Shown: piece by piece, positions 2,461 through 62,805 of the stretch
Layout of the letters: each line of letters begins with the position of its first letter
Numbering within the stretch: the first letter of the stretch is position 1
Assembly: GCA_021234155.1 (NCBI GenBank)
Contig: JAJEKV010000074.1
Location: forward strand, 1,142,154-1,206,153
Direction: 5' to 3'
DNA length: 64,000 nt
Source of the DNA: Isoetes taiwanensis
Lineage: Eukaryota > Streptophyta > Lycopodiopsida > Isoetales > Isoetaceae
Notes under the pieces: model-generated
Seen by the model: the letters and a program-made list of their open reading frames with translations, nothing else
Databases searched by the model: none
Told to the model about the DNA's origin: nothing
Translations under genes and position numbers: made by a program

Positions 2461-4258
2461 AAAAAGTATTTTTATTTTTGGTCCAAATTTAGACTAGTCT
2501 TGTCACTAGAATATCATCTTGTACGGACTAGCTAGAAATATCCTCTCCGGCAAAGTGGAGGACACGATAGGCACAAGTTCTACCACGCCGGGATCATGGC
2601 CGTATAACCCCAAGAACCCCAAATATAAACACACCGGCCGGGTTTGAACCCCCACCAAGTGCACATTTATTTTTTACTAGGCCTATACCAACTCATCACA
2701 CATCCGTTGGGCAAAACTTTAGCCATACATGCACACTTTGTAGGGCATATCTCCCTCCCTTAGGAAGTCAAAATTTTGTATTTTTTATTTTGGTCCAGCT
2801 AGACTAGTCTTGTCACTAGAATATCATCTTGTACAGACTAGCTAGAAATATCCCATCGCCGGGCCAAGGCAACCAAAGTGGAGGACACGATAGGCACAAG
2901 TTCTACCACGCCGGGGATCATGGGTCGTATAACCCCAAGAACCAACTCCCAAATATAAACATACACTGGCCGGGTTTGAACCCCCGACCAAGTGCACATT
3001 TATTTTGGCATTACTAGGCCTATACCAACTCACCACACATCCAGTTGGGCAAAACTTTAGCCATACATGCACACTTTTGTAGGGGATATCTCCCGCCTTT
3101 AGGAAGTCACGAAAATTTTGTATTTTTTATTTTTGGTCCAAATAGACTAGTCTTGTCACTAGAATATCATCTTGTACGCACTAGCTAGAAATATCCTACC
3201 GCCCAAAGGCAACCAAAGTGGAGGACACGTATAGGCACAAGTTCTACCACGTCCGGGATCATGGCCAGATAACCCCAAAGAACCAACTCCCAAATATAAA
3301 CATACACCGGCGGGGTTTGAACCCCACCAAGTGCACATTTATTTTGGCATTACTAGGCCTATACCAACTCACCACACATCCGTTGGGCAAAAACTTTTAG
3401 CCATACATGCACACTTTGTAGGCAGATATCTCCCGCCCTAGAAGTCACGGAAATTTTGTATTTTTATTTTTGGTCCAGCTAGACTAGTCTTGTCACTAGA
3501 ATATCATCTTGTACAGACTAGCTAGAAATATCCCATCTTGCCGGTCAAGGCAACCAAAGTGGAGGACAACGATAGGCACAAGTTCTACCACGTCGGGGAT
3601 CATGGTCATTATAACCCCAAAACCAACTCCCAAATATAAACATACCGGCGGGTTTGAACCCCCCACCAAGTGCACATTTATTTTGACATTACTAGGCCTA
3701 TACCAACTCACCACACATCCGTTGGGCAAAACTTTAGCCATACATGCACACTTTGTAGGCGGGATATCTCCCGCCCTAGGGAAGTCACGAAATTTTTGTA
3801 TTTTTATTTTTGGTCCAGCTAGACTAGTCTTGTCACTAGAATATCATCTTGTACGAGACTAGCTAGAAATATCCTACACCGGTCAAGGCAACTAAAAGTG
3901 GAGGACACGTGATAGGCACAAGTTCTACCAATGTCGGGGATCATGGCCAGATAACCCCATAACCAACTCCCAAATATAAACATACACTTGCCGGGTTTGA
4001 ACCCCCACCAAGTGCACATTTATTTTGGCATTACTAGGCCTATACCAACTCACCACACATCCGTTGGGCAAAACTTTAGCCATACATGCACACTTTGTAG
4101 GCGGGATATCTCCCTCTAGGAAGTCACGGAAATTTTGTATTTTTATTTTTGGTCCAGTTAGACTAGTCTTGTCACTAGAATATCATCTTGTACAGACTAG
4201 CTAGAAATATCCTACTGCCGGTCAAGGCAACCAAAGTGGAGGACACGTATAGGCACCC
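2461..4258 (-). repeat. Tandem array of a ~335-bp unit with tRNA-like A and B boxes
   Basis: The phrase AGACTAGTCTTGTCACTAGA recurs at 2491, 2801, 3144, 3481, 3831 and 4160, giving spacings of 310, 343, 337, 350 and 329 bp. There are five full units and a truncated sixth. On the minus strand each unit carries TGGTGAGTTGGTATAGG (A-box-like, e.g. complement of 3019-3034) and, about 36 bases on, GGGGTTCAAACCCGG (B-box-like, e.g. complement of 2972-2988). That order and spacing is what a tRNA-derived SINE head shows. Units differ mainly by 1-3 base indels in GC-rich spots. It could be a SINE amplified in tandem or a satellite that captured a SINE head. Confidence 0.75.
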
Positions 4259-5660: not shown

Positions 5661-7340
5661 GAATAGATATTATCTAACTATCTATTTAAAAGAGTTTTTC
5701 AGCTCTTGCTGCCTTTCAAGCCGCAGGTATATCTTTGCATGTTAGCAAAGACTACCCTTCATGTTAGACAATAACCTTTCTACCCAGATTGCTAAACATC
5801 TTTAATAAGGGTCCTCAGTATTCCGACCCTTACGCCTGCTACAACGTACACAACTCACCCGTTTTGTTGTGACCTTTACTCGATTAAGTCACCAGTCAAT
5901 TACTCGCTGCATTCATTAATCGTCTTGTGGCTTCTAAAAGCTATTATATATTCCTATATTGTTGACCCACCTATCATTTGGGGTTGTGATTCAACGTTGT
6001 TCTACATCCTCAAATATTGGTGTACATTTCTCTTGTCATGATGTTATATTTGTTGTTACAGCATTCCAAATGACTTATCCTCATTTAATATAGTCATGGC
6101 CTAAGGCCAGGTGAGCCTTCGTGCTAATCCTAAATTACAGGTGTCAAGGTATCTGCACAGTATTTTATGAGTCTTCTCTAATCTAGGCATTTTGATATAA
6201 CGGACTTGTGGCCATGTTCGAGTCCTGTATATTGATTTACACCTCCATGTAACCCATGCTTTTCACCTCTTTTGATCGGTATGGATCGTAATGGGAAAAG
6301 CTAATCTTAGGTGTCTATTCAAGACACATTTGACTTTAGCATGTAACTCCCTATTTGATACTATCACAAATTGTACTGTTATTTCTTCAACCCCTCATCT
6401 TAAGCTTCATTCTATTGTGCGTTGACATTTATTTGGGGTGCCAACTTCTGACCATCCTTAGCCTACAACGGGTAGATATTTGTTTGCTCATCGAACATAC
6501 TCTAAACCCTTGTGATAACTTTGGGACCTTTTCGTTTTCTCTCATACTACATGCGCCACTTAGATTACCTCTCCGGCATGTTTGCCTTCATTATGTGTAC
6601 GTACTGTGTACATAACAAACATATATCACTCACCCCCGATGCTAGGCCTCTGCTCTAACCCATTGAGTAACTTGTATTAGTTCTTATGATGTGGCTGTAC
6701 CACCTACTTCCCAAATGAGGAGGCCAACTCTATATTGGACTTGTACATGTTGATGTATTCATGTGCGAGCCCGATGCATGTTTGATAACTTGCCCATGTA
6801 TAGAGGGTTCTTTGATAGCCCGACTTTTCCACTTTTATCTTATCTACATCTGTTACCTTTTGTTCGATGATGTTTTGATATCGGACTTGGTCCTTCAACT
6901 TCTTATGATAAGTATGTCAATGCACCTTGGTGCTTAAACTCTTCTATGTTTTAAGCTTTCATGCTATTACCTTTGAAAATAAGAAATTACCTTCCTTTTT
7001 ATGTATACTTCGCTTCTAACTGCGGTTTTCGATTAGCAAAATCGTTGTTTAACTAACCCCAGTAGCAGAATGACATTATTTCTAAGAGGGAGAATGTGGC
7101 CCGTTCCATGTATTTATATGAGTATACATATAAATAAGGCATACGTCACCCAATAAAAATCTACGCCACCATGGAGTATCTTAACCTAAAGGGGTTGACC
7201 TAAAAGAAAGGATGAATTTAAACTTATGGTACTTTCTTCCCGATACATAAACTATAATTTTCCCATGGGGATTATGCCATAGTTCAAAGAGTTTCTACCA
7301 TAGTCAAGGCCTTTTCTAAGGTTCCTTCAGTTAATTTATG
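5661..7340 (+). mobile_element. Retroelement 3' end, left arm of a large inverted repeat
   Basis: This arm pairs with the reverse complement of 7857-9556. The outer ends match (GATATTATCTAACTATC against GTTAGATAATATCC at 9539-9552) and so do the inner ends (TTTTCCCATGGGGATTATGCC at 7258-7278). Many indels separate the arms. Near 7082-7093 the purine run CTAAGAGGGAGAA is followed by TGTGGC at 7094, the typical order of polypurine tract and LTR start. The upstream part would then be decayed internal sequence, but I could not recognise an integrase or polymerase motif in it. Confidence 0.55.
7082..7093 (+). other. Candidate polypurine tract
   Basis: A purine-rich run is followed immediately by TGTGGC, which would start a 3' LTR. 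The mirrored site at 8094-8107 reads CTAGAGGGGGAGAA on the minus strand and is also followed by TGTGGC. Two independent copies of this arrangement support it. Confidence 0.5.
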
Positions 7341-7856: not shown

Positions 7857-9556
7857 CGGCGAATTAACTGAAGGAACCTTTTAGAAAAGGCCTTTGACTG
7901 GTGGTAGAAACCTTTGAACTATGGCATAATCCCCATGGGAAAAATTATAGTTTATGTACGGGCTAAAGTACCATGTTTAAATTCATCCCCGCTTAGGTCA
8001 ACCTCCGTTAAGAGGATCTATGGTTGCACTTTTTATTGTTATTTGCCGCCTTTATTTAGCATGTATACCACAGTAAATATGATGGAACGCCACATTCTCC
8101 CCCTCTAGAAATAATGCCGCCCTCAAAGATTGGGGTTAGTTAAACAAAATGACGCTAAGACCGAACTCCAGAATAGAAGGAAGTATACATAAAAAAGGAA
8201 GGTAATTCCTTATTTTCAAAGGTAATAGCATGAAAGCTTAAACATAGAAGAGTTTAAGCAACCAAGGTGCATTTGACATACTCTATCAAGGCGAAATATC
8301 GAAGGACCTAAGTCCATATCAAACATCAACGTAACAAAAGGTAAATGTATGTATGCAGATAAAGTGAAAAGTCGGGCCAACAAAGAACCCTCTATACATG
8401 GGCAAGTCAAGCATCGCCCGCACATGTGAATATCAACATGTACAAGTCCAACATAGAGTTGGCCCCTCCCCATTTGGGAAGTAGGTGGTACGTACCACAT
8501 CATAAGAATCCAATAAGGTTACATTTCACGGGTGCCAGGAGCGTATTTCAGCATCGTGGGGTGAGGATATATGTTTGTTGAGGTACATAGCATGTACACA
8601 TATCGCATAAACATGCCGGAGAGGTAATCTTAAGTGATGCATGTAAGGAGAGAAAACGAAAGGTATTCCTGTGCCAATGGATGAAGGGTTTAGGAGTACG
8701 TTCTAGACAGAGCAAAACAACATTCAATTCGCTGTAGGCTAAGGTATGATGTCGTAGGTTGGCACTGGGGCAACGTCAACGGCCAATAATGGGAAGCTTT
8801 AAGATGAGGGGTTGGAATAGCACAATAGTACACCTGTGATAGTGTACCAAATAGGAGTTACATGCTAAAGTTCAAAATGTGTCTGAATAGACACCTTAAG
8901 ACTAGTTTTTCCCACATGATCCATACCGGATCGCAGGGGAAAAGCATGGGTTGGCATGGAGGTGTAACGTAATAGCAGACCAACATGGATACAAGTCCGT
9001 GTTATATCAACGTCGGCATTGCAGGGAAGACCTCATAAATACCGTAATTCCTTGATGACTGCTGTGTAATTTAGTGAGCCTAAGGTTCACCCGCCTTTAG
9101 GCCATGACCAGGCTTAAATGAGGATGCCAAGTCATTTGGAATGCCGCAACAACAACATAACATCATGACAGAAATGTAATAACCAACATTTGGAGGATGT
9201 AGAACAACGTGCTGGACCATAACCCCAATGATAGGTGGGTCATCAATATAGGGAATATATAATACGCTTAGGAAGCCACAAGACGCATTAATGAATAATG
9301 TGAAAAGGAGAATTGGATTGGTGACTCTATCGAGTAAAGGGTCACAACAAAACGGTGAGCGTAATGCTTGTAGCAGCGTGAAGGGTCGGAATACCGAGGG
9401 ACCCTTATTAAAGATAAGTTTAGCAACTGGTAGAAAGGTTATTGTCTACGATGAAGGGTAGTCTTTGCTAACATGTGAAAAAGATATACCGCCACAAAGC
9501 AAGCAGCCAAGAGCCGAAAAACTCTTTAAATGTATAGTTAGATAATATCCGATGTA
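7857..9556 (-). mobile_element. Retroelement 3' end, right arm of the inverted repeat
   Basis: This is the minus-strand counterpart of 5661-7340. Reverse-complemented, it runs from decayed internal sequence through GTCGGGCT-type stretches shared with 6815-6830, to CTAGAGGGGGAGAA (8094-8107), then TGTGGCG as an LTR start and about 235 bases of LTR. The two copies therefore face each other tail to tail. Both arms have stops in every frame. Confidence 0.55.
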
Positions 9557-15340: not shown

Positions 15341-16870
15341 TGAATGTATTGAGAAGAAGCGCGCGCTCTCAGGTGTGCCTGCCTGTGGCAATCAACACAT
15401 GATTGCCCATTCGCCAGCGCAAAATTAAGCGCAGCTTATGGATTGGGATTCACGCAATATTGAAGACGCATGATCACATGAGGCCCGTGATTTCATAGAT
15501 GGTGAGTGTCATCCGGTGCAATATTGAGTCTTGGTGATATTGAAAATCACCGACATAAGTTTTTATGATTTTTGTCAACATGTATTTTTCCTTCATCATA
15601 TTTTTGTGGGAACTATATCGTGCTTTGTTTATCTTCTAATTATATGATCTCGAGCATTACCACATGTGAAAAACTAAATTACAACATGAAAGTAAGATTG
15701 TTTTTCAAAATAGTTACATAAGCTATTTTAACAAAGCACCACATGTGTTATTGAAGTCTTGTTATTATTTTGATAAAGCTATATTGTTTTTAAATTAAGG
15801 ATATAAAAACATTATGACTAACATATATAAAGTCTTGGTGTTTTGGGTTATCTCTTAGTTAATAAATATTGACATCGCGGCTTATTTTATAAATAATAAA
15901 CAGTTATTTTGAACTAACTCAACATCTAATAACGTGGCTTACTTTTTTCAAATAAAAAAAATCATTATTATCACATAAGTAGAAAACAAGGAGGTGGTGT
16001 TTCTAATAACTTCTAACCAATCATATATTGACACGCGGCATACATTCAAATAAAAATTCATATTTACCACAATTAAAAAATTAATAAGGACTATTTAAGA
16101 CAAAAAATATTGTATATTCCTCATTTGGATATTGAATATCAGAAGCTTATTCTCTCATGGGGAATTAAATATTGATGTTTATTCTCTCGATCATTATGTA
16201 AGTGCTTCCCCTGTCAAGTTTTTATTTTATCTTTTTCATTGATAAATTCATTAGGGCAAATAAATGTGCCATTGCAACCAAGGGAGATTGATACGGAAAA
16301 GATGCACAATAAATTCTAGAGCGTATAAACCATAAACCTCTACAATACCGGTTAAGGAATGAATTGATTATTTTGTACAAAGCCATTAATGATATCATAG
16401 CTTAATCAAGCAATCGTATCTGTGATCCTACCTTTAACAACATAATAGAATAAGCGTTTTCAAAGACACAAATTGGATTTGACGGTAATACTCATTTCAG
16501 ATATCCACCCGATTTGAAACCAGTTTTCAATCACACTCTCAGCATACGCCAAATAAGAAGTAAGATGAAGCTGAAAGCTCAAAGTCAAGCTTCGTGGATA
16601 CATATCACAGTTTCAGTTCACAAACTCTAACCACCGACACAGAACGGCCCCTATTTTACCGTAACGTGGAGCATCTAGAGCAAAAAATAAAGTTGCGGAG
16701 AAATCTCGAGAAGAATTGAAGTTTCACCTCAATTCTGTAGAAAGTCAGGAATGGAGTACAAAAAGATCTCATTTTTTCTCTTCCTTTGCATCTAACCTAC
16801 GTAGTCCGGATTTGCTAATACGCTCGCTTTGGTAATGTTAACATTATTTGATGCATCGGGAATCCAATAG
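15341..16870. other. AT-rich stretch without genes
   Basis: Long A/T runs and stops occur in all frames. I see no terminal repeats, tRNA-like boxes or reading frames. Confidence 0.5.
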
Positions 16871-17650
16871 ATGCCGTTGTTTTATAACGCGGAACAGAGT
16901 AAATCGCTCGCATGGCATCTTTCAACCGCCACATTTTTAAAAAGGCTCATACAAAATCCTCCTAACAAACAACAAACCCAAAGAGCTAAATCCTGTGATC
17001 TACAATTTGAGGGTTTCCAAGATCCTCAGGCCGCCCCCTCGCGCCTCGCGGATGCAGGTAAAGTTGCCTTTTCGCAGCATCTCGGCCGCCATACGGAGAC
17101 AAATTTGCAAAACAGCAGGCCGCGTCTACGGTGAACTCACCGCCATAGTTATACAATGCACGGGCTTTGTTAATCTATGAAACGTAAGAGCTATTTAGTC
17201 TAAGATTGAGTTAATAAACTGCAGTCTTCTCCTTCATAACCCCAAGACATAACCAGAATCGTTCCTTCATGTCGCCGCAAGCCATAACCCATATTTCACC
17301 TGATCAACATAGCAAAGAGGCTCCGACATCGCCATAGCTGCGAAGGGAAAGAAAATATGGCTTATTGTCATAGCTAAGAGTCTTATCGCCATAGCCAATG
17401 GAGGGAAATGAAAAGATACGTATTAATCTCAGCCCCGGCTAGAGCCAATGAAAGGGAGAGGACCCCGGACAATATCCCCGGCCGCTGATCATAATAAATC
17501 ACAACGCCATTTTAAGGGCCAATAATATAATAGATCTGGATCAAGATCGTAGTCATCCATCTTCGGTTATAGCAAAATATTTTAATGGTTTAATTCATAT
17601 GTGATCATTCTTATGGTTGAAATGACGGGCTCCCCTAGGATCCATCCCTC
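16871..17650. other. Possible promoter-proximal exon scraps, unresolved
   Basis: On the plus strand CGGATGCAG is followed by GTAAAGT (17,050-17,065), a good splice donor after a possible ATG. On the minus strand a 30-codon frame opens with ATGGCGGCCGAG (17,092 downward). Neither can be tied to a known protein. From 17,200 a loose repeat of CCATAGC phrases begins. Confidence 0.2.
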
Positions 17651-17652
17651 AT

Positions 17653-19298
17653 CATGCCATCTGGCTCCGGAAGATGCCACGCCAGCCTAATATGCCAAGC
17701 AAGATCTAAACATGCCACTGCTGCTCCAACATGCCAGATGGCTCAAACATGCCACGTGGCTCCACCCATGCCACCTAGGGCCCAACATGCCAAGGTGGCT
17801 CAAACATGCCATCTAGTCCAACATGCCACCTAGGCTCAAACATGCCAAGGTGGCTCAAACATGCCACCATGTCTCCAAATGATCCAGCACCAAAACGCCA
17901 CCAGGGCTCCAACATTCCAAGTGGCCTCAAACATCCCACATGGTTCCAACACGCCAACCAGGGTCTAAATACGCTGTGGTCTAAACATGCCACGTGGGCT
18001 CTAACACATGCCAATTCCTAGTTGGCTCCAACATGCTGCACGCAGCTCCAAATGCCAGCGATTCGGGCATGCCAAGGTGTTCAAACACGCCACCTAGGCC
18101 CAACATGCCAAGCAGGGTTTCAAACATGCCACCTAGGCTCTGTAACATGCCAAGGTGTTCTCAAACATGCCAAATCTGGCTCCAACATGCCACCTTAGGC
18201 TCCGTAATGACGCTTAGGTGGTCAACATGCCACGTAGTCCGAACATGCCACCCAGTTCGCCTTCAAACATGCCAATGGGTTCAAATGCCACCTGCACGCG
18301 AAACATGAATATTGCTGGGCTCCAACACGCCACCAGGTCTCCAAATACGCTGGCAGTGGCTCAACCATGCCAATGGCTCCGAATCGCTACAGGGAGCTCA
18401 AACATGCCACTCCAGGCCCCAATATGCCAAGGTGGTCAAACATGCCACCTAGACTCCACATGCCAGCAGGAGCCAACATGCCACCCAGGCTCCAACATGC
18501 CAAGGTGGCTCAAACATGCCATGTGGGTTTCAAATTTTCACCTAGGCTCTAACATCCAAGGTGGTCTCAACATGCCACTAGTTCAAACGCAAGCTGGCGG
18601 TGGTTTTAAACATACCACCTAGGTCTCTAATATGCCAAGGTGGTTCTCCCAAACACAGACATGTGGGTTTCTCAAACACGCCAATTCTGGCCAAACACAA
18701 GGTGGCTCAAACATACCATGGGTTTCCAACATGCCACCTTGTGGGTTCCAAATATGCCAAGGTGGATGCGCATTTTGGTGAGCTGGGCCATGCCGCCTAG
18801 GCTCAAACATGCTAAGGTGGCTCAAAACATGCCAGCAGGAGTCTAACATGCCACCTAGGCCCAAATACGCCGCTGTGGCTCCAAAATGCCAAGGTGGTTC
18901 AAAAATGCCACGTGGCCCAACATGCCACCTCCAAGCTCCAACATGCTGGCAGGAAGTTCAAACATGCCAATGGGTTTCTGCAAACATGCCACCCAGGGCT
19001 CCAACATTTGCCAAGGTGGCTCAAACATGCCATGTTTTGCTTCAACATGCCACCTAGGTCTAACATGCCAAGGTGGCCCAACATGCCACGCAATCTAAAC
19101 GCCACTCAGTCTAAGCAACATTACGCCAAGGTCATGCCGCCCTAGGTATCTCAACATGCCACCTGAGGGCTCCGTGATGCTCAGCAGGAAGTTCAAACAT
19201 GCCAGGCTGCTCCAACATGCCCCAGGGTCTAAATATTAACGCAGACCCAAATACGCCAAGCATGGTTCGAAATGCCAAGGTGGCTCAAACATGCCATG
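17653..19298 (+). repeat. Minisatellite array 1 (19/38-bp unit, forward)
   Basis: Two alternating 19-bp half units, CATGCCACCTAGGCTCCAA and CATGCCAAGGTGGCTCAAA, repeat across 1.65 kb with substitutions and short indels. GCCACCTAGG in one half can pair with CCAAGGTGGC in the next with one mismatch, so each 38-bp unit is a potential hairpin with a ~10-bp stem and ~10-nt loop. The array runs in all three frames without many stops, which gives spurious open frames. It is the reverse complement of the array at 21,440-24,013. Confidence 0.9.
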
Positions 19299-19652
19299 TA
19301 AGTACGAAGCGACCAGGGACTTCATGCGCCAGCCACATGCAAACCCTGTTCTTTGTCCGGTCGCCCGCGCTAATGTTGCCGGGCGGAACGAGACTGACGT
19401 CATGCCATCTCGTAACCACAGTGAAATGCACCAGTGACCAGTTACACGCCATTTTCGGCAACCAAAGAGTCGATCGAACTCCTTGGCCACAAGCAAAGAT
19501 TTCGCAGCCAGCCCTTGCATCCGGTTGAATACGCAACACGTTGAAGCTTACGCCGTATTCCCATTCACCAAACTTGGTTCCGTGAGCAATGTCAATAAGC
19601 TGACCATCGTAGTCGGCTCGATACAGTTCAGTGGGGAAAGTTAAAACATCGC
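19296..19652 (-). CDS. Open frame of unknown function in the core between the arrays
   Basis: The minus strand is open for about 118 codons, from just after a TGA near 19,652 down to the array edge. It includes segments TELYRADYDGQLIDIAHG, GEWEYGVSFNVLRIQPDA and LPKMACNWSLVHFTVV. Composition looks like a globular protein, and the opposite strand has stops over the first half. There is no obvious ATG start, so it is likely an internal exon or a fragment. It stops abruptly where array 1 begins. I do not recognise the family. If the arrays are the arms of a transposable element, this would be its cargo or a captured gene piece. Confidence 0.35.
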
Positions 19653-21439
19653 GTCAGAGCCGTGAGTAGATTGGGGCCAATCATCGAAGGTTTGGGGCAT
19701 CGCCTCTGACGATATTCTCCTCCACGCGATGATATTATGTACGAATCGACTAGATAGCAGCAGCTGTTGTGGTTATTGAAGCTGCTTCACATTGCTGGGG
19801 TCGCAGCTTGGGGTACCTACAGTATTGGGGACATGGTCGAGAAGTTTGAATCTAAAACATGAAGGTCAGAATCGCATGGAATGTTTCGGTCTCTTTCCGT
19901 GGTACCAGAAGTCATGGGCTTTCAGCAGGTTGCGCTTCATCGAGGCCACAGATTCAGTCCCCAGGTGTTATTTCGCCGTCGCGGTTTCATATGCATGAGC
20001 TTAGAAAAGGCACCTAGTTATCTGCTGAAAACGACACGCTTGGCCTTCAAACAAACCCAATAACCCCAGCAAACATATAGGTTTACGCTTCGGAGGCTAA
20101 AACGCGGTCGCTTTTCGATAAAGCCAGGCGCACCTTTACAAACACATGGGCGCGGAGCCATGGCAACCCAAATAATAGAGCTCTACTCCAGCCCTCGTCC
20201 ATCCCTAATGATCCCAAACACTTATAATGCTCACAAAAGGCGCCTTTGGACTTCCTCAAAATGCCATTAATCGAGGAGGATACCGCCCAAACCCCATTCC
20301 ATCGGGCCTCCTATTGCTTCATGTTTCAATTGCGCCTTCTCAAATCCGCGTCCTGCGCAATCGACGAAACTTCCTCACCCCCATAACGTAAACCCTTCAA
20401 TAACCTACCGCCATGGTTTACGCTTTGAGGCTATATCCAAAATGTGAATTCGACCGTGATCTCGTACTAACAAGTCATCCACCAGAGAGGGTGTTGACGT
20501 AAGATAGACTCCTAAAATCTTTCTAGAAGCGCCGCCCCAAAGGTCCCTCCTGAACCCCGCCACCGGACGGCAACTTTCCCACTCCGTAACCCAGGAATCT
20601 CACCGCCAATGGACTCAAATCGTACATTACTACCTTGAAGACCAAGTTTCGTGGGCGTAAGACTACCCTTTCCAAGAAGCCAAAGTAGTCCATGTCCAAC
20701 ATGTCAGTAGTCAATTGGTTTAAGAGGTGGCTTAATACCGCCATGTAGAGGGCTCATGTTTTTTCGCTGCAAAATGACCGTGAGCAATCCTTGGTCCCTA
20801 GGTAATTTTGCCGTCTCGATGGCATGGCGGTCGCACTATTATTTTGAGCGTTTTGTACCGCCCGGTCTACAAACACTGGCGTTTACACTATCGCATCGCC
20901 AGGACGCTGGCCGTTTGGATAAATTCTCTTTGGACCGACTCGATTTTTTGAACGCGATCAAAGCAGTTAATTCTGAACGCATCAATTCACCGGTCGGATA
21001 GGGAAACCGAGCTCGTGGGAGTGGGAGCACCGGGCATTTACTCCTCCTGTGAGCGAGGCGGCAGAAAAGTCGCCTTTGGTAACCTTTTTGAGGTGTCCAT
21101 CTGGTCTCGGGCTCTCTCTCCCTCTGGGTGAGGGAAGCCAGAAAGTCCGGCCTCGTTTGATTTGGGAAGGGTGTCAGCCTACAGTTCTTCAAGATCCTCT
21201 AAGCCTCCCATCCCTTGCCAAATTCCCACCAAAAATTTGGAAGGTTATCATATTTTGCATAAAACCTACCACGTATCCATGTCACCATCATCTAGCCATG
21301 TCACCCAAAAATTCTGCTAACATCACCTTAATGAAAAGACCAAAGATGGACATCTTTCATTTGGCCTAGTCAAACTCTCGACCTTGCTTACTATACGCCA
21401 TGTCACCACTTCATGCTCTAGGTGGTATAAGCTTGATTT
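19653..21439. other. Rest of the core between the opposed arrays
   Basis: This DNA is GC-richer than the surroundings, with short open stretches on both strands. The plus strand has 60 codons from ATG at 19,881, 37 codons from ATGGCAACC at 20,160 and 81 codons at 20,756-21,001. The minus strand is open at 21,192-20,839 (117 codons). None could be matched to a protein family. The patchwork of frames suggests broken exons. Confidence 0.3.
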
Positions 21440-24013
21440 ATGATGGCATGCCCGAAGTCAATGCAGCATGCTGGAGCCTGGGGATGAGAGCAAGTTGGAG
21501 CCCGCGGCATGTTGGAGCCACACCGGCATGTTCGAGCCACCTTGGCATGTTTGAGCCTAGATGGCATGTGGAGCCACTCAGGCTTTTGAGCCACCTTGGC
21601 ATGTTTGAGCCTAGGTGGCATGTTGAGCCCAGATGGCATGTTTGAGCCACCTTATGCTGGTTCACATGGCATTGAGCCTATGGCATAAGTTGGATTCAAG
21701 GCATGTTGCAGCCTATCTTGGTTTGTTTCCCACCTTGGCATGTTCTGTTTAAGGCATGTTGGGAGTCTAGGTGGCATGTTTGAGCCACCTTGGCATTGCT
21801 TGAGCCTAGGTGTGCCAAGCTGGAGCCACTGGCCACGCTTGGAGCCAACTTGGCATGTTGGAGCCTAGGTGGCATGTTGGAGCCCATGGCAGCATGTTTG
21901 AGCCACCTTGCATGCTGAAGCCTAGGTGCGGTGATGTTTTTGCCACCTTGGCATGTCGGAGCCCACTGGCATTAAGGGAGTCCATGTGGCATGCTTGAGC
22001 CTCCCAGCTCTCGTTGGGAGCCTAGGTACGTTTGGTTTTTATCTGAGAGTGTTTGAGCCACTGCATGTTTGAGCCTAGGTGGCATGCTGGTTTGTGGTGG
22101 CATGTGCTGGAGCCCAATGGCATTGGGCGGAGTCCACGTGGCATGCTTGACCCACCTCGCATGTTGGAGCTCAGGTGGCATGTTGGAGCCTATGTGGCAT
22201 GTTGGCTTCATCTGGCTTGGCATGTTGGAGCCTAGGTGGCATGTTGGAGCCTCGCGTGGCATGTTTGTGACACCTTGGCATGCTGGAAGCCTGTGTGGCA
22301 TGTTTCACCACCCTGGCATATGCCATTCAATGCGGGCATCATGGAGTCCACGTGGTATAGTTTCAAACACCCTGGCATATTGGAGCCTTAGGAAGAAGTT
22401 TGAGCCACCTCGCATGTTTGAGCCTAGGTGGCATGCGTTGGAGCCTAGGTGGCATGTTGGAGCCACCTTGGCATTGGAAGCGGGGAGCCCACGGCATTAT
22501 GGAGAGTCCAATGCGGAGGTTGACCCACCTGGCATGCCGGTTTCCAGGCGGCATGCTGGTTTCCATGGCATGCTGGTTCATGGCATGTTTGAGCCATCTT
22601 GGCTATGTTTGCTTCACCTTGGCATGTTTGAGCCAAGGTGGCATGATGGCCTTGGCATGTTGGAGCTCTACTTGCATGTTGTGAGCCACCTTAGGGGCAT
22701 GTTTGAGCCCAGGTGGCATGTTTTGAGCCACCTGCCATGTTGGAGAGCCATAATGCGTCCTTTTAGCCACCTTGGTATGTTTGAGCCTAGATGGCATGTT
22801 GGGAGCCTAGGGTGGCATGCTCTGGAGCCACCTTGCCATGTTAGGAGCCTCACTTGAGATGTTGGAGCCTAGTGCTGTTTGAGCCACCTTGGCATGTTGG
22901 AGCTTAGGTGGCATGTTAGAACCACCTTGGCATGTTTGAGCCACCTTGGCATACTTGAGCCCATGTGGGCATGCTGGAGCCTCAAGATGGCATGCTTGAG
23001 CCATCTTGGCATATTGAAGCCTAAGTGGCATGTTTGAGCCACTGCTATTGTTGGAGCCTGTGTGGCATGTTGGTTTCACCTTTGGCATGTTCCACCCACC
23101 TCGCATGTTTGAGCCTAGGTGGCATGTTGGAGCCACCTTGGCAAGTTGGAGCCCGCTGCATGTTTGAGCCCACCTTGGCATGTTTTATTTCCTAGATGAG
23201 TATGTTTTAGCCACCTTGGTGCATGTTGGGATTCACATGGCATGCTCTGAGCTCACCTGGCATGTTGGAGCTCTTTTATGGCATGTTGGAGTCTTAGGTG
23301 TTTTGAGCCACCCTCAAGATGTTAGGAGCCTAGGTGGCATATTGGAGCCCATGTGGTATGTCTCGGAGCCACCGTGGCATACCCATTTTGTGGTGGCATG
23401 TTTGAGCTCCTCCCAGATGGTTTCCCACTGCATGTTGGCCTAGGTGGCATGTTGGGGTAGTGGCATATTGAGTCTAGGGTGGTATGCTGGTTCTGTGTAT
23501 GCAGGAGCCTATAGGTGGCATGTTGGAGCGCCTCGAGGTGGCATGTTGGAGCCCACATGGTATGTTTGAGCCACCTTGGCATGTTTGGAGCCTAGGTGGC
23601 ATGTTTGAGCCTGAGGTGGCATGTTGGAGCTTTAGGGGTATATTGCTCTGATTTCACCTGGCATGTTGGTTTCAGGGTGACATGTTGAGCCCACGGCATG
23701 CTCTGAACCACCCTGCTATTGGAGCCCATGTGGCATAGTTTGAGCCACCTTGGCATGTTAGAGCCTAGGTGGATTGTTAGAGCCAGTAGCATGTTAGGAG
23801 CCATGGTGGCATGTTGGATAGGTGGTATGCTGGAGCTTCAGGTTTGAGCCACCTGGCATGTTTGAGCCTAGGTGGTGGCTGTGAGCCACCCTAAGTACGC
23901 CGGAGCTCAGATGGCATGGTGGAGCCACGAACTCTGGCATGTTGGAGCCACCTTGGTGATGTTTGCTTCACCTTGGTTGGTGGCATGTTTGACACCTTGG
24001 TGGCATGTTTGAG
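21440..24013 (-). repeat. Minisatellite array 2 (same unit, inverted)
   Basis: TTGGAGCCTAGGTGGCATG and TTTGAGCCACCTTGGCATG alternate for about 2.57 kb; these are the reverse complements of the half units in array 1. Runs of several kinds of imperfect unit occur, with occasional missing bases. The longest open frame in the window (22,069-22,857, 262 codons) lies here and is a by-product of the repeat. Confidence 0.9.
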
Positions 24014-24409
24014 CCAAGTGGATTAAAAATTTGGCCATTCCACATCCCTATGCCGTAGTGCTTGTATGTACACTTAAATGATATCTTTATTTGATTAAAT
24101 AATTCTTATGAACTGAAATTATTTCATTGACCAGAAATCCAATAATCTCTGATTTAACCTCAGAAAACCATTGACCTCATATCCTCAAATGGATTTGTAT
24201 AAGATAACTTAATATTTATTATTATTCCTTCCTTCCCTTCACGCTCTCGGCTTCTCCTCTTCCCTCTTCCCCTTTCTCGACTTGTCCCCAGGATAAAGAA
24301 AGATCTTTGATCTGACCTGACGGATCCTGTTTTATAATTTATAAAATATGGAATACTTTTGGCGGGTGTCATATGAGTAATGATTGATAATGATAAATTA
24401 AGAACCTTA
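24014..24409. other. AT-rich flank without genes
   Basis: This flank has no reading frame or repeat of note. A pyrimidine-rich patch (CCTTCCTTCCCTTC) lies at 24,227-24,240. Confidence 0.4.
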
Positions 24410-25520
24410 ATTACACCCTCTTTAGAACCTATACATCCTTAGAAAAAACCTTAAAACCACATATACTATAAACCCCATCTCCAAATACACCTCCTTAGGA
24501 AATGGTCACCACCAAAAGAAAACCACAGCCCTTTAACAAAAACATAAATTTTTTAAAACCACACGCCCTAAAAGCAAAGACTACGTACTCTATGGGTGGA
24601 TGAAGTCTCTACCAACCTTGCGTATAAAGCAGGATGGCCCGCAATGAATTGGGAAGCCCCGGGCCGGAAAGACAAGCAAGCCTGGTTCTCACATGGAATG
24701 TGCAGTATCACGATGTGGACCAAGCATACACCGGTTGAACGGCCGCCTGAAGGGCACTTCGATGTTTGTTTATGGCTGCTTTGGATGTAGAGGCCCCGCC
24801 ACACGTCAAGGTGGCAATTATCGACAAAGAAGCATCCCATGCTCACGAGGGGCCCACACTACCCGCGCACCCATCTACCCATGAAAGTGCGTGGGTGATT
24901 GCTTCCATTCAAGACAGGTGCACACCACACCGCGATTTGAGACAGAGAGATGGATTCGTGAGCCGCGAGGGACAGAGTCTGGGTCAGTGATGTCAACAGG
25001 CGCCATTGAGGATGAAAGTCACGCCCTCCAGGTCTGTTCGGCGTGTACGCAGCGGCCATCCGCTCGGTATGCTCTAAGCCAGCCCCATCGTGCCGCCCCT
25101 CGCATGAGCAACGAGCACCGCCTCTCAGAGGCTTGTTGGGATCGCATACCCCGGAGGTGGATGGATACGGACCAAGCATGCCCCCATGTCCCACATTATG
25201 TATATAATCATATGTCACATCCTTATTGCTACTTGCTTCCTAAAAACCCTCTCAGCGGGGTTTTTAACTCGGTGTGACACGCCTGGCCGCCTCTCTCTTT
25301 GTACTTGGGTCCCATAGGTCAGCTTGGTCTCAGGGATCTATAAAACCATATTCTATTCTACTCCTTTAAAAAACCAAGTACTTACTTATAAACCATATTA
25401 ATCTTCAAAATCTACACCTCCTTAAAACACTTCACCACTCAAGCAAAACCACATTTCTTTTAACAAAAACATACCTCTCAAAACCACACGCCCTAAAAAC
25501 ACGTTCATGCCTCCTTAAAA
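24410..25520. repeat. GC-rich block between direct repeats
   Basis: The flanks 24,420-24,580 and 25,345-25,510 are diverged direct copies: both contain CACCTCCTTA, TTTAACAAAAACATA and AAAACCACACGCCCTAAAA in the same order. Between them lies about 740 bases of GC-rich sequence (24,590-25,330) with overlapping open stretches on both strands (up to 128 codons at 24,891-25,277 plus) but no recognised domain. The layout resembles two short LTR-like copies around an insert, or a tandem duplication split by an insertion. Confidence 0.45.
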
Positions 25521-25529
25521 AATAACAAT

Positions 25530-25862
25530 TTGGACGTTTCTTGTCCACTTAGAAACAAAATAATCAAGTACTTAGTAAAACTACACCTCCAATGCATCTA
25601 CATGTTGAAATCTCTCAATAAAGAACATGTGGACTCTAAGAAAACTATATCTTTTCAACAAGTGGACCAAAACGTAGTGAGTGTGTACCACCAAATTGGG
25701 TTGGGATTTCGCTGGCATTCATATATACATATTTTTGAAGAATCAGATTATCAATATATTAAAAGAATGGTAATGGCAAAGCAAGTGAGTGAGGAAGGAG
25801 AATCGCCTCTAAAGAGACAGCCGATACTGACACTCCACAAACAAACTCACAAAAAAACCTAA
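25530..25862 (+). CDS. Small open frame, unknown
   Basis: This frame has 110 codons from ATG, rich in Lys, Gln and His, and follows the second direct repeat. No domain, signal or transmembrane segment is evident. AT-rich surroundings make a chance frame possible. I see no splice sites that would link it to another exon. Confidence 0.15.
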   Translation: MDVSCPLRNKIIKYLVKLHLQCIYMLKSLNKEHVDSKKTISFQQVDQNVVSVYHQIGLGFRWHSYIHIFEESDYQYIKRMVMAKQVSEEGESPLKRQPILTLHKQTHKKT

Positions 25863-25929
25863 ACCTCTATCATTGCATAAAACCACTATCACTATCTACA
25901 ATACCTAAGTAAGTCCTAAATGGAAAACT

Positions 25930-27000
25930 TCCCCGGCCTACTAGTCCCTAGGAACACCGTAGTTTCTTTGAAATAGCTTGTACCCGAAGCCCAGGGAATC
26001 GTGAGAGGCCGCAGCTCAACTCCCCCGAAGATCCACAACCGCCGCCCAAATCGCCCACACACCAACCAAGCCACATTACATGCAAGTTTGCCGCCGCAAG
26101 AGCCGCCAAGCACCAGTGATACAATACATGAAGAACCGGCCGGGTTAGTCAATTCACTCAACAGTCCTAACCCATCCCCCAAACCGCAGGGCCAACCGCA
26201 TAATGCCCACAGCCTCAACATGAAGGCCACAACAGCGGGCGCAGAGGGCTCCACACTCGCCTAAATCGACTCACAAGGGCATTCACCCCGCATACAAATG
26301 GCACCACCGCCACGGCACCCTAACCTTCGGGGAAGTGAGCTCCATGTCCACGCCCAAACTGAAATACCGTAGAACCCTAAGCCGCAGAGACCACTTGTCC
26401 GAAGGGGCAAGGTGTCATGAATAGTCACACTTGCACAAGACCCCTGCATTGTCAAGAAGACACAACATCCTGATGAACCTTCCAAACTCAAGCACCACCA
26501 CATCATCCCTCGAGGGACTATAGGGTATGTGTAGTGGAATACTCCCCGCCAATTTTGGTTCCCGTGATAGCCCCGTCACCACCGCTGCCGCAAAGCCAGC
26601 TCGAAGCAACTCCAATGCCACCACCACCCCAATACCAATCCTCCAAGGTGAGCAATGCGAGTCGCCCAACCGGCCCGTCCGAGCGCATGAACGGCGGCGC
26701 CCAAGCGGCGCGCGCAGGGGTAGAGGAAACCCGCAAGAAAGGGAGAGTGGTGATAAATCGGTAAGTACAATCTAGCCGGAAGAGCATGCACATGATCCCA
26801 AGCCCCAAACACCCCCTGAAAAGGGATGCATGTGGGAAAGGCCGAAGACCATACAACAAGCCTGTGGCAACTCCACATGCACGGCACGGCTTCCCAAAAT
26901 GCCACACAATGGCTAAGAGACTCAGAACAACGTCCAAGACTGTGAGAGAAGATGCTCCATCTCCGTTGCATCGCTCCAAACAAACTTGAGACCAACACCT
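25930..27000. other. GC-rich segment open on both strands, unresolved
   Basis: The plus strand reads as Pro/Ser/Thr-rich peptides (26,001-26,264), which in plant LINEs is typical of the ORF1 linker. The minus strand is open for 153 codons (26,979-26,518) with Gly/Trp-rich sequence. I cannot choose between strands. A retroelement ORF1 remnant is the simplest guess. Confidence 0.25.
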
Positions 27001-29330
27001 TTACTATACAATGCCAAATGGTGAGTATATCGTGGTAGCAAAAAACTTAATTCAAAGCATCTCCCAAAGACCAAAGACCCAAAAATACATTTTTTCCCAC
27101 CTTCAAACATTTTTTTCCCACCCTTCACCTATAGTACCAACGGTATTTCCCTCGGGCTTCGTTTATTCGTTTAGCTTGCACTGCGATATTAATCATTGGC
27201 GATGTTTGCTCACTTTAATGAATGCACTTCAAGTAACTGAACCACTAGACAAACGAATCTAACTTTTCAATTTGTGTTTTCCAAATCTTCTTTCCCTAAC
27301 TTTCTCTCGTTACCTACAACCCGGAAATTTATGCTTGATTTCACATTAAACAAACAGATAACCATGGTAAAAGTAGCGTGATTGATCCTACCGCCAAGCA
27401 ATAATTCCTAACCAACCCATTTGCCTGCAAGCAAAAAAGCAACAAAACAAAATTCTATGGGTTTAGGGTTCAACTCCTCACATCTATTTTTGTATTCTTT
27501 TCCAGTTGAACGTTTCTTTAAGACCTGACTCATTACCATTGTCAATCTAAGAAGACTTAGCGCGTATGCACCGCTAAACGAGGGCGCTCATCCCTCTAAT
27601 TTCGGAATGATCTCATATATCCTCAAGCAGCAGAGTACAATGAAGTTTGGGATACCAACCGGTCATTCCCCGCAAAACTTCCATTGACAAGGTAAGGTCA
27701 GAAAGCACCTAAGAAGCCTAATAGAACTTCGAAAGCAAAATATACCCCGGACGTGGGTTGAAGAACGAGAAGTTAGAAAGACAAGATCATACCTGACATT
27801 TGTGATCCGGTCGCAACCTTCCGAGAGCAAAGCAGATCCAATGTAAGTCTGGGTTAATTGGGCAGCAATAAAAGCATAGAGTAGAGCTCTACAAAGAAAT
27901 AAGGTTAAAAGTGAACTCCACCAAATAAAGGTTCACAGCAGAAAGTGCAGAGGTCGAACCCAAAGAAATCAATAAACACCGGAAGCATAAATAGAAAGCC
28001 TAAGCCAGAGGCACTAGTATTAAATTAGAAGGAGGCTCCGTCCATTGAAAGCTTGCACGTAGCCCAATAGCTACACGTTTCGGGAGAATTACGGGATTCC
28101 AACTGAAGTCATGGGTGCACGTGACGGCGGTGAAATCCCAAACACGCTAAGAAGTCGGGATTTTAGTCTCCAAGAAGGAGCTTAGTTGTCCGGGCCCCAG
28201 TTAAGGGGAGCTTTTCGGGTTTCTCCACAAGAGAAATTGCAATAGTTATCAACATCTCACGCCTTCAAGCGCCACAGGTCCCCATGTCAGGCTCGCTTGA
28301 AAGCCACCGAAGCTCGAGAGAGAGAAAGACATGGGCAGGCTACGCTCAAAGCTCTTTGCTTGAAATGGGGTGGCCCAAGATGAGGGATAGTTCACCCAGT
28401 GGCCACTATAGTCAGCTGAGGTGAACAATGAAGTGCGCCTTGCAAAAAGCCAAGCAAAGACTTAGCTTAATCTCAACAAGTCTTAGGCTTACAAGGAGAG
28501 CCGCCACCATGAGCATCCATCTCCGGCGGACATTCAGTTAATTGAGATGAGGAGAGATGCTCCACAGCGCGGGTCGGGTATTCCGTGAAGATGATTACAC
28601 CCCTAAGTCCGGAAGCTGAAATGTGGCTGTATATCATGTCACCGCCCGAGTTTGTTTAGCGGAGAAGACGTAACGCCTCTTCGGAACACCAAACGCTCAA
28701 AGAAAGTTTAGTGGAGGAATTGGGAAGACAGCCAAGCAGAACCCTATATACCGGGCAGCACACAAACAACAAGTTGAGACAATGACCCTAGATGAGGTGG
28801 TAGCTACACCCGTGAGCCAAAGAACAAGAAAAGGAAGCACTGAAAACACCTTCTAGTAAAGGATCCACCTGGACACAAGTCTACAAGGACTCGAATCTAT
28901 CAGGGCAAGAACAAAGAAAAAGGTACACCGCTATTCTCAAGTGGGTACATTTAGAAGTCAGAGACGCGAACGCGATCAGGCAAGCAAAATACAGCCATAA
29001 TGCAAAGACTAAAGACTGAAAGGTTAAAGACACCAACACCGCCCAAAGCAGCATTCCAAAGAGTTCCTCCGACGATGCCGAAATACAATATAGTTCCAAA
29101 TTCTCGGCAGCATCCCTACAAAGGCCTCCTAACACTCTGTTGCGGGAAGACAAGGATGTTGGAAGACCCGGAATATAGTGGATAAGCAGTGAACAAGGCT
29201 GTGGGTCAATCACAAGGCTCACAAGGTCCGTGACCAAAAAATGTTATAGAGCCCGAGTGAGGGTGAGTCGATGATTCGTTGATGAGGACGGCCTATAGAT
29301 CGGTCTAGGAAAAAACCCTCAGCCTAATGT
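27001..29330. other. No gene recognised
   Basis: From 27,550 to 29,300 the plus strand has a Lys/Arg- and Ser-rich flavour but stops appear every 20-40 codons. It may be a decayed retroelement internal region; I found no primer binding site or catalytic motif to prove it. AT-rich DNA follows to about 29,900. Confidence 0.3.
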
Positions 29331-59768: not shown

Positions 59769-60097
<329 letters not shown>

Positions 60098-60916
60098 TCA
60101 ATTTTTTTTAACATGTTCCTATGTGCAAGTTCTTATAAAAGAATCTCTTGAAAATACTCTAAATTCATAGATTATCTAACATTCTACCAAGGTTCTCTCG
60201 AGATTCTGCCAGGGTTCTCTAAAAATACCAAGGGTTCTCTAAATTTTATAAGATTCCCTAGATTTTCCAAGATTTTATGAAGAAGATCCTTAGATTCTCT
60301 TAAGATTCATTTTAGATCTTGTGAGATTGCCTAGGTTCCCTTACATTATATGAGATTCAAAGAGATTCTATAAATATTCCCTTACATGCTCTAAGATTTC
60401 ATCAACATTTTCTTAGATTCCCTTAGATTTTATGAAGATTCCTTTAGATCCCCCCAAATTTTAAGAGATTCCCTTAGGCTTGTAAATATTTTCTAGATTC
60501 TCTTATATTTTATAAGATTTTCTTACATTTTATTAGATTCTTAAGTTCCTTTACATTCTAGAACTTTTTAGAACATTCTAAGACTTTTGGGAACATTCTA
60601 GACTTTCAATATATTCTAGAACTTTCACCAAGTGTATTTTCCTAGATTTCCTTACATTCAAAGTAGATTCCCCTACATTCCTAGAACATTCTAAAACTTA
60701 TTAGAACAATTTAGAACTTTTTGGAAGGAATTTTCTTAGATCCCCACTAGATTCTCTTATGTTCTAGAACTTTCTAGAAGATTCTAGAACTTTCTAGAGC
60801 CTTCCGGAACATTCTAGAGCCTTCTTGAACTAGCTAGAATATTATAGGCTATTTTATCTTAATGGCAATATTACCCATAAGTATAATTGAAACATATAGA
60901 TTATTCATTGAATTAA

Positions 60917-60980
60917 TGCTTGGTCTAGTGGTTTAGAGTGGGGTTTTGGGGGTTGAGGACGGGGGGGTTGAATCCCCGAT
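60917..60980 (+). repeat. tRNA-like SINE head in the left arm
   Basis: TGGTCTAGTGG at 60,921-60,931 fits the A box and GGTTGAATCCC at 60,966-60,976 fits the B box of RNA polymerase III promoters, with the spacing of a tRNA gene. The sequence between them does not fold into a convincing cloverleaf, so a functional tRNA is unlikely. Confidence 0.65.
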
Positions 60981-61722
60981 AACATAAAAAATTTTAAAAG
61001 CCTTTCCTTAAGGGATGAGCATTCAACATGAGCCTTAGGATCTTGGGCTTCGATCAGCGATCAAGATCTCACCATATAAAGCAATATGAGCCGTGGGATG
61101 CATCATATAATTCCTAAAGCCATGTGGGCCATTGGGATATGTGCCCCGCCACACAGCCGTAGGATCTCGGATCGGCTTGTCGGGGATCAAATGCGTGGGA
61201 TGGATGGGTTACATATAGTCTATATAAGAACCCCCAACCGATGCGGGCCTTAGGATCGTCCCCCAAAAGCCGCGTGAAGCGTAGGATCACCGGATCCACC
61301 GTCGAGGATCAGATCCAACTTTGGGCCCGTAGGATGGTGTCTATATGGGGGCGTGTAGCTCCCCAAGCCATTTGGGCGTGGGATGTGTCCCAGCAGCGTG
61401 ACCGTGGATCCGGTGATCCTACCGGCCCACGGGCTTTGGGACGATCCTAAGGCCCGCATCGGGTTGAGGGTTCTTATATAGACTATATGTAACCCATCCT
61501 ACTGGTCCATGTTAATTTGATCCCGATCGCGATCCGAGATCCTACGGCTCGTGTGGCGGGGCACATCCTACGGTCCATGGCTTTAGGAATTATATGTGAC
61601 GATCCTACTACCATATTGCTTTTATATGGTGAGATCTTGATCGCTGATCGAAGTCTAAGATCCTAAGGCTCATGTTGAATGCTCATCCCTTAAGGAAAGG
61701 CTTTTAAAATTTTTATGTTATT

Positions 61723-61782
61723 GAGGGATTCAACCCTCGTCCTCAACCCCCAAACCCCCACTCTAACCACTAGACCAAGCAT
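61723..61782 (-). repeat. tRNA-like SINE head in the right arm
   Basis: This is the inverted partner of 60,917-60,980, with A box complement at 61,768-61,778 and B box complement at 61,725-61,735. The B box reads GGTTGAATCCC, as in the left arm. Confidence 0.65.
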
Positions 61783-62617
61783 TAATTCAATGAATAATTT
61801 ATGTTTCAAATATACTTAAGGGTAATATTGCCATTAAGATAAAATAGCCTATAATATTCTAGCTAGTTCAAGAAGGCTCTAGAATGTTCTGGAAGGCTCT
61901 AGAAAGTTCTAGAATCTTCTAGAAAGTTCTAGAACATAAGAGAATCTAGTGGGGATCTAAGAAAATTCTTTCAAAAAGTTCTAAATTGTTCTAATAAGTT
62001 TTAGAATGTTCTAGAATGTAGGGGAATCTACGGGAATGTAAGGAAATCTAGGAAAATACTTCCTAAAGTTCTAGAATATATTGAAAGTCTTAGAATGTTC
62101 CGAAAGTCTTAGAATGTTCTAAAAAAGCTCTAGAATGTAAAGGAATCCTAAGAATCTAATAAAATGTAAGAAAATCTTATAAAATATAAGAGAATCTAGA
62201 AAAATATTTACAAGCCTAAGGGAATCTCTTAAAATTTAGGGGATCTAAAGGAATCTTCATAAAATCTAAGGGAATCTAAGAAAATGTTGATGAAATCTTA
62301 GAGTATGTAAGGGAATATTTATAGAATCTCTTTGAATCTCATATAATGTAAGGGAACCTAGGGCAATCTCATAAGATCTAAATGAATCTAAGAGAATCTA
62401 AGGGGATCTTCATAAAATCTTGGAAAATCTAGGGAATCTTATAAAATTTAGAGAACCTTGGTAGAATCTTAGAGAACCTTGGTAGAATCTGAGAGAACCT
62501 TGGTAGAATGTTAGATAATCTATGAATTTAGAGTATTTTCAAGAGATTCTTTTATAAGAACTTGCACATAGGAACATGCTAAAATTGGAACAATGCGCCG
62601 TAGGACGTATTAATTTT

Positions 62618-62805
<188 letters not shown>

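Follow-up and report, generated by a model that had tools for sequence, protein, structure and literature searches.

Two kinds of described transposable element come closest to the locus reported here, the CACTA transposons and the foldback elements, SoFT being one name among the latter. Plant CACTA elements carry subterminal units of 10-20 bp, and mirrored arrangements of these repeats are already in print (PMC8978399); the Chenopodium element Jozin, for instance, carries 12-bp units, 8-13 of them at each end (PMC8978399), and the soybean element Tgmt* has 4 repeats in 159 bp and 24 in 732 bp (PMC2613891, PMC4219821). The subterminal repeats of En/Spm bind protein, and those of Tgm have been proposed to do so (PMC2613891). 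Foldback elements such as Drosophila Tetris and Galileo (PMC4079207, PMC3688188) and the nematode Tm1 (PMC3169594) are built of long inverted tandem-repeat arms around a middle domain, and the plant foldbacks FARE, Tnr8, MuTAnT and TAFT have been named, with a 1997 plant-foldback paper also cited (PMC3169594, PMC4486113). Here we describe a mobile element of Isoetes taiwanensis, found in a window of 64,000 nucleotides (contig JAJEKV010000074.1, positions 1,142,154 to 1,206,153; coordinates below are those of the window unless a contig is named), which is most probably a worn copy of a high-copy, non-autonomous CACTA-like DNA transposon family. A first-pass annotation, made from the letters of the window, had seen in it a candidate foldback element with a gene-like core and had known of no clear plant counterpart with this unit; given the plant foldbacks and the mirrored CACTA repeats already published (PMC3169594, PMC4486113, PMC8978399), the latter view cannot be kept.

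Opposed arrays and their recurrence in the genome

The window holds two diverged, strand-segregated arrays that face each other, and the claim that blocks of 1.65 and 2.57 kb consist of the same unit in opposite orientation is confirmed. Tandem Repeats Finder gave periods of 19 bp and 36-39 bp at both sides, and the heptamer CATGCCA occurs 42 times on the + strand and never on the - strand of the left array, as against 0 and 60 times in the right array. Tiled with two 19-mer unit types, A = CATGCCACCTAGGCTCCAA and B = CATGCCAAGGTGGCTCAAA (tile limits 12-28 for the window arrays, 14-25 for the three complete copies described below), the left array of 1648 bp gave 82 units, with 68 bp unassigned and a mean edit distance of 4.09, and the right array of 2572 bp gave 129, with 112 bp unassigned and a mean edit distance of 3.85; for shuffled arms, and likewise for the core between the arrays, that distance is about 9. 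The two types alternate in 32 of 43 neighbour pairs on the left, an order matched by 5 of 2000 permutations, and in 55 of 77 on the right, matched by none of 2000; the 38-bp dimer is therefore real. No privileged register was found between left and right arm, which are not collinear, and the nearest relative of a unit lies within its own arm at a rate of 0.689, against a permuted mean of 0.526 (0 of 300 permutations).

The source assembly (1,658,258,908 bases) was searched with 901 bp of the left arm, which gave 139 matches among the 40 best scored of 3762 candidates; the seven top copies among the matches listed agree at 81-83% over about 880-890 bp. Twenty loci were fetched, namely the 12 best-scoring, seven picked for hits that were already opposed, and one single-orientation cluster, L028. 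Density maps placed a + arm followed by a - arm inside the 10 kb fetched at 10 of the 12 best-scoring loci (L016 and L019 lack an opposed pair, and L010 shows extra array pieces); the seven loci picked for opposition do show opposed arms, and L028 does not. The core was matched at 18 of the 20 loci, L023 and L028 being without it, and at least in part at all 12 of the best-scoring; the left flank (tested piece 16600-17660) was matched at least in part at 19 and the right flank at nine. Opposed pairs with a common core, for which the first-pass annotation had proposed to search, thus recur. Four loci (L009, L011, L015 and L018) agree with one another at 89-93% across 9.3-10 kb, and the element therefore reaches far beyond the arrays.

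This recurrence bears on two simpler explanations. A minisatellite or satellite array might have been split by an inversion or insertion, with no element involved; the arms are indeed not collinear with each other, and L028 holds the unit in a single orientation, but at many loci the arms are found opposed, together with core and flanks and with sharp common ends and target duplications, and the complete copies refute this explanation, to which we give a negligible probability. Alternatively, an assembly inversion or a fold-back read artefact might be suspected, since repeat divergence rich in 1-3 base indels indicates that the sequence may be noisy. Many contigs, however, show this layout, the complete copies have six different flanking sites, and the arms differ in length and in their variants, as the nearest-neighbour values above indicate; we regard an artefact, refuted by the recurrence, as next to impossible. 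Of the outcomes named in advance as fatal to the proposal of an element, a mostly single-orientation satellite is at odds with the recurring opposed pairs, a unique core with the sharing of the core between loci, and an assembly inversion with recurrence on many contigs.

At L028 (C1026:11046500-11056499) the single-orientation array continues for about 7 kb and runs off the fetched stretch; the locus includes an exact right end and is read as a copy in which one arm has greatly expanded. In databases of viral and prokaryotic contigs the dimer pattern had no exact match, a literature text search with the unit strings gave a single, unrelated paper, and a literature search, with subscription papers largely outside it, gave no recognised description of unit or family, which is weak evidence of novelty. 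Scans of the window for Rfam families and tRNA were empty.

Element ends, target duplications and copy number

Array edges must not pass for element ends. The span 17653..24013 given in the first-pass annotation covers only the arrays, whose edges lie 1.7-2.3 kb inside the ends of an element that is about 10.3 kb long here (15.39-25.685 kb). When three copies, C1072, C1047 and C930, were extended leftward, homology began at one point in each. They are complete copies of 10.5-10.6 kb, with an AT-rich left region of about 2.25 kb, a + arm of 123-124 units and a - arm of 123-126 units of about 2.4 kb each, and a right region of about 1.2 kb that contains a short direct duplication. Their units have a mean edit distance of 1.8-2.0, against about 4 in the window copy; in C1072, too, no privileged register was found between the arms, which are not collinear with each other.

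The left end, CACACTGACCCCAATTTTTGGTCCACAGTTG, and the reverse complement of the right end, CACACTCACCCCGCGTTTTGGTCCACTGTTG, agree at 26 of 31 positions in all three copies, with small differences in C930, and the family ends can be written as imperfect 31-bp terminal inverted repeats (TIRs), CACACTGACCCC.../...GGGGTGAGTGTG. With the right end set at GAGTGTG, the flanking triplets are TAT in C1072, GAG in C1047, TAT in C930, TAT in the C912 copy near 2.39 Mb, AAG in C1044, ATC in the C912 copy near 1.198 Mb and TTA in C1056. All seven complete copies read have a 3-bp target duplication, at six distinct sites; the sites are not seven because C930 and the C912 copy near 2.39 Mb have identical flanks. 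L009 (C930) and L012 (C912), identical in their flanks on both sides, may be two haplotypes or a segmental duplication. C1056 represents a second subtype of 11.06 kb with two mismatches in each end and the TTA duplication, in which a + and a - arm stand side by side, followed by tandem palindromic core modules and another - arm. Other loci were less complete: L014 keeps the left end and has no right end, neither end lay within the fetched stretches of L016 and L017, and among seven loci with side-by-side arms the left end was present at up to 5 mismatches in L021, L023, L024 and L025 and not in L022, L026 and L027.

Genome-wide, a 26-base end pattern allowing up to 2 mismatches was found 914 times forward and 911 times in reverse, and the reversed pattern used as a control was found 0 times in either direction. 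About 100 listed ends, paired by eye, formed many facing left- and right-type pairs some 8.6-14 kb apart (for instance, C23 34270 and 44041, or C112 678350 and 688748), along with some pairs 16-33 kb apart and unpaired ends. These counts suggest that the genome contains about 900 elements, perhaps with two haplotypes counted.

The dot-plot shape of the locus is also that of a MULE-type foldback such as FARE, MuTAnT or Tm1, whose arms would be terminal repeats and whose target duplication would be 9 bp, and the long inverted arms of short tandem repeats expected of such elements are present. An exact 9-bp direct repeat, ATTCTTATG, even flanks the arrays at 17607-17615 and 24102-24110. A 9-mer of this kind, however, arises by chance in 11-13% of cases (P 0.127 with shuffles, 0.106 with random window pairs), this one is internal to the element common to the other copies, and the complete copies end, beyond the arms, in 31-bp TIRs flanked by duplications of 3 bp, not 9. 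A MULE-type foldback, refuted as regards target duplication, is thus very unlikely. Drosophila Galileo, of the P superfamily, makes a 7-bp target duplication, with which the 3 bp found here likewise disagree. What remains of the foldback proposal is the mobility of the element and its build, a core enclosed by inverted arms of tandem repeats; the ends and the 3-bp duplication fit CACTA and not the FB, Galileo or MULE kind. The unequal arm lengths of the window copy recall foldbacks in general, as the lack of detected coding capacity recalls Tetris (PMC4079207), but the Isoetes family has distinct 31-bp ends, and its arms lie inside them. The units of Tetris are of about 220 bp, unlike the 19 bp here (PMC4079207), and Tm1 has a 9-bp duplication and 1-9 units of 13-15 bp, compared with about 123 units per arm (PMC3169594). 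MuTAnT and TAFT share the foldback shape in a plant genome, but MuTAnTs lie inside TA microsatellites and have 9-bp duplications, unlike this family (PMC4486113). Directly beside the arrays no convincing outer inverted repeats were found, and for a CACTA-type end sought there, the GTAGTG at 24055, no partner exists (as good a result came from 248 of 500 shuffles), the true ends being farther out.

Coding capacity and classification

The core had been described as GC-richer and gene-like with open frames. Its GC content (0.493) is above that of the outer flanks (0.43-0.45) but below that of the arms (0.52-0.54). The longest open frame in the window core, of 130 aa, was equalled in 238 of 500 shuffles, which is chance level; a six-frame scan of it found no Pfam family, and ten open reading frames (ORFs) gave no credible Pfam match, two matches being sub-threshold (E 0.14 and 0.099). 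The window core is therefore not gene-like, and a coding core was rejected. In C1072, C1047 and C930 the core is a non-coding, continuous palindrome of about 1.6 kb, 81-82% self-complementary in all three, and frames of at least 150 aa in these copies all lie in the arms, except for one of 150 aa in the C930 core. The window core agrees with the copies mostly at 73-78% in its right part, from 19989, and at only about 60-66% in its left part; from C1072 it differs by 134 substitutions and 118 gap events over 1348 columns, against 50 and 60 in 1398 columns for C1047 and 62 and 53 in 1413 columns for C930.

Pfam scans of C1072 covered the core, the + frames of the right region and, of the ~2.25-kb left region, the last 1449 bp, which gave no hit; for C1056 they covered 8.95 kb of the locus, outside the left region and the first two arms of that element, and returned a DEP match (E 0.04) and a Cas6 match (E 0.00023) in X-laden frames, both below curated cut-offs and read as spurious. 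A THAP match was found neither in the window core nor in the scanned parts of C1072. The genome does contain Transposase_21 (PF02992), with at least 167 matches among the best 150 of 2311 candidates, as compared to none in 14 control genomes.

We assign the family, as probable, to the CACTA group because it combines a 3-bp duplication, ends that start with CAC and mirrored repeats of about 19 bp. A 3-bp duplication and short CAC-starting inverted ends are likewise features of En/Spm, Jozin and Tgmt*/TgmR* (PMC8978399, PMC2613891, PMC4219821), as are units of 10-20 bp mirrored at the two sides and a total length of about 8-20 kb; the 19-bp units here are + on the left and - on the right, though 1.3-2.25 kb inside the ends. 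It is filed as CACTA-like only, because the literal CACTA end is absent and no encoded transposase was found in the parts scanned. In the three complete copies each arm comprises 123-126 units and measures 2.4 kb, far more than in the CACTA elements compared, Jozin and Tgmt*, and the CACACT ends and the 1.6-kb palindromic core set the family further apart from them.

Several points weigh against this assignment. The ends, CACACTGACCCC and CACACTCACCCC, do not start with CACTA or CACTG, and what they share with canonical CACTA ends is confined to the initial CAC and a CACT displaced by two bases. Between end and array lie about 2.25 kb on one side and 1.3 kb on the other, more than in the elements compared. 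The 3-bp duplication is seen in complete copies; in the window copy neither the left end nor the target duplication is readable. If the right end is drawn shorter, direct matches of 5 bp (C1072) and 7 bp (C1047) appear; in C930 the longest match with a sliding end consists of unrelated 4-mers only, and the 3-bp reading was preferred as the sole one common to all complete copies. The scanned parts of the complete copy and of the C1056 subtype yielded no transposase. Three Transposase_21 proteins of the genome, used as tblastn queries, found nothing in the window, in the three complete copies, in a stretch of 18 kb from C1056 or in 20 kb of a candidate of 21 kb on C112. Among the members and parts scanned, no autonomous element with CACACT ends was found.

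Alternatively, the family might belong to another superfamily with 3-bp duplications, either PIF/Harbinger or an undescribed one, its CAC start being a coincidence. PIF/Harbinger has a TWA target preference, and the triplets TAT, GAG, AAG, ATC and TTA show no general preference of that kind. This alternative draws on the CACACT ends, on the failure to find a transposase and on the 3-bp duplications that PIF/Harbinger too makes (PMC2213677); mirrored subterminal arrays of 10-20 bp units are, however, a CACTA trait (PMC8978399), and we consider another superfamily unlikely.

The window copy, its surroundings and a proposed mechanism

Table 1. Parts of the CACTA-like element in the window
Feature	Position	Strand	Basis
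Whole element, worn copy of the ~10.5-kb family	15390..25685	+	alignment to three complete copies; left end approximate
AT-rich left subterminal region, no coding signal found	15390..17652	+	flank matches
Left arm, 82 diverged 19-bp units (A/B dimer 38 bp)	17653..19300	+	heptamer, tiling
Core	19320..21430	.	comparison with complete copies
Right arm, 129 diverged 19-bp units	21446..24017	-	heptamer, tiling
Right subterminal region	24018..25685	+	alignment to complete copies
Direct duplication of ~100-150 bp in the right subterminal region	24397-24584 and 25361-25525		
Probable insertion, ~0.78 kb between the direct duplicates	24585..25360	.	
Right terminal inverted repeat, ending GTGAGTGTG	25656..25685	-	alignment to complete copies

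In the alignment, element position 67 of C930 falls at 15390 and position 197 of C1072 and C1047 at 15552; the first ~66 element positions and the left terminal repeat are not recognisable. The stretch between the direct duplicates is probably an insertion because its flanking duplicates adjoin in complete copies. The window copy is either worn or noisily sequenced, age and base errors not being separable. We note that in the left ~47 kb of the window and in other family copies, several repeat pairs have indels of 1-3 bases in numbers that equal or exceed their substitutions, as would be seen in an unpolished long-read assembly; near 48 kb, one pair has 26 substitutions and a single gap.

On the + strand both arms have an excess of pyrimidine transitions (30 of 37 unit positions; sign test 0.0002), which resembled a transcription signature, a hypothesis framed after the totals were seen. 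Within the first 47.3 kb, seven pairs of direct repeats, of which one pair lies in the element, showed 52 C/T and 26 A/G differences, with C/T ahead in five pairs and tied in two; the pair near 48 kb was opposite (C/T 3, A/G 13), and in a 339-bp array the asymmetry was slight (14/445 for C to T and 9/310 for G to A; 7/415 for T to C and 5/500 for A to G). We do not take the excess as a property of the element; it is unexplained and possibly a signature of sequencing.

Other repeats lie around the element. The 339-bp tandem array, at 2466-4256, has 5.4 copies with 88% matches. A 1.7-kb inverted pair (5666-7336 and 7862-9549) is 78% alike, with about 0.5 kb between its arms and no 7-12 bp target duplication at the edges tested. 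A repeat with sharp limits at 25732-27019 has about 40 listed matches at 75-81% (best 40 of 3260 candidates). At 60094-62592 stands a second, much cleaner foldback, a 2.5-kb palindrome whose arms have 1131 identical and 38 mismatched positions and 65 gap columns. It sits in a TA microsatellite (blocks 59935-60093 and 62622-62800) and resembles MuTAnT/TAFT (PMC4486113). Its arms contain two runs of seven perfect alternating GAA/TTC heat-shock-element modules (60762 and 61902), and all six runs of at least three such modules in the window fall inside it, compared with a mean of 0.03 runs in the shuffled palindrome. Six-frame Pfam scans of the window at 12.6-17.6, 24-29, 33.5-38.5 and 43-53 kb gave nothing, and ten other window ORFs gave a single weak AP2 match (E 0.0077), below the cut-off.

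The suggestion that a transcript across the arrays would form a long duplex is upheld by predicted folding. Folded alone, the window arms place 1144 of 1575 pairs between the arms, with a longest perfect run of 22 bp and a minimum energy of -2203, against -1520 with the right arm turned round; the C1072 arms place 1879 of 2006 pairs between them, with perfect runs of up to 50 bp.

As a mechanism, the 19-bp units may be binding sites for a DNA-binding protein that an autonomous CACTA relative would supply in trans. On the strength of the En/Spm work and the Tgm proposals (PMC2613891), we infer by analogy that the units bind a transposase-associated protein. The mirrored arrays would then bring protein-bound ends together, and an enzyme of the Transposase_21 type might cut at the CAC ends and insert the element through cuts staggered by 3 bp; arrays of such extreme length could have a higher affinity for the transposase that is shared. 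As a side effect, transcripts would be expected to fold into long double-stranded RNA and might attract silencing. A bolder speculation, which we consider doubtful, is that the family is a CACTA-derived parasite whose roughly 250 mirrored putative sites per copy, meant for a transposase that the family does not itself encode, out-compete autonomous relatives, whose arms feed family-wide small-RNA silencing and whose CACACT ends form a separate end-recognition class among CACTA-like elements. If true, this would amount to a natural transposon-killer architecture at hundreds of loci, each transcribed copy being a multi-kilobase hairpin.

If the CACTA-like assignment is right, CACTA-like subterminal repeats can expand to kilobase mirrored minisatellites, and a CACTA-type element can adopt the foldback form, so that two classes usually split by dot-plot shape converge. 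With probably many hundreds of natural copies, and arms of about 1 to about 7 kb at the loci seen, the family could be used to ask whether more binding sites lead to more transposition or to more silencing.

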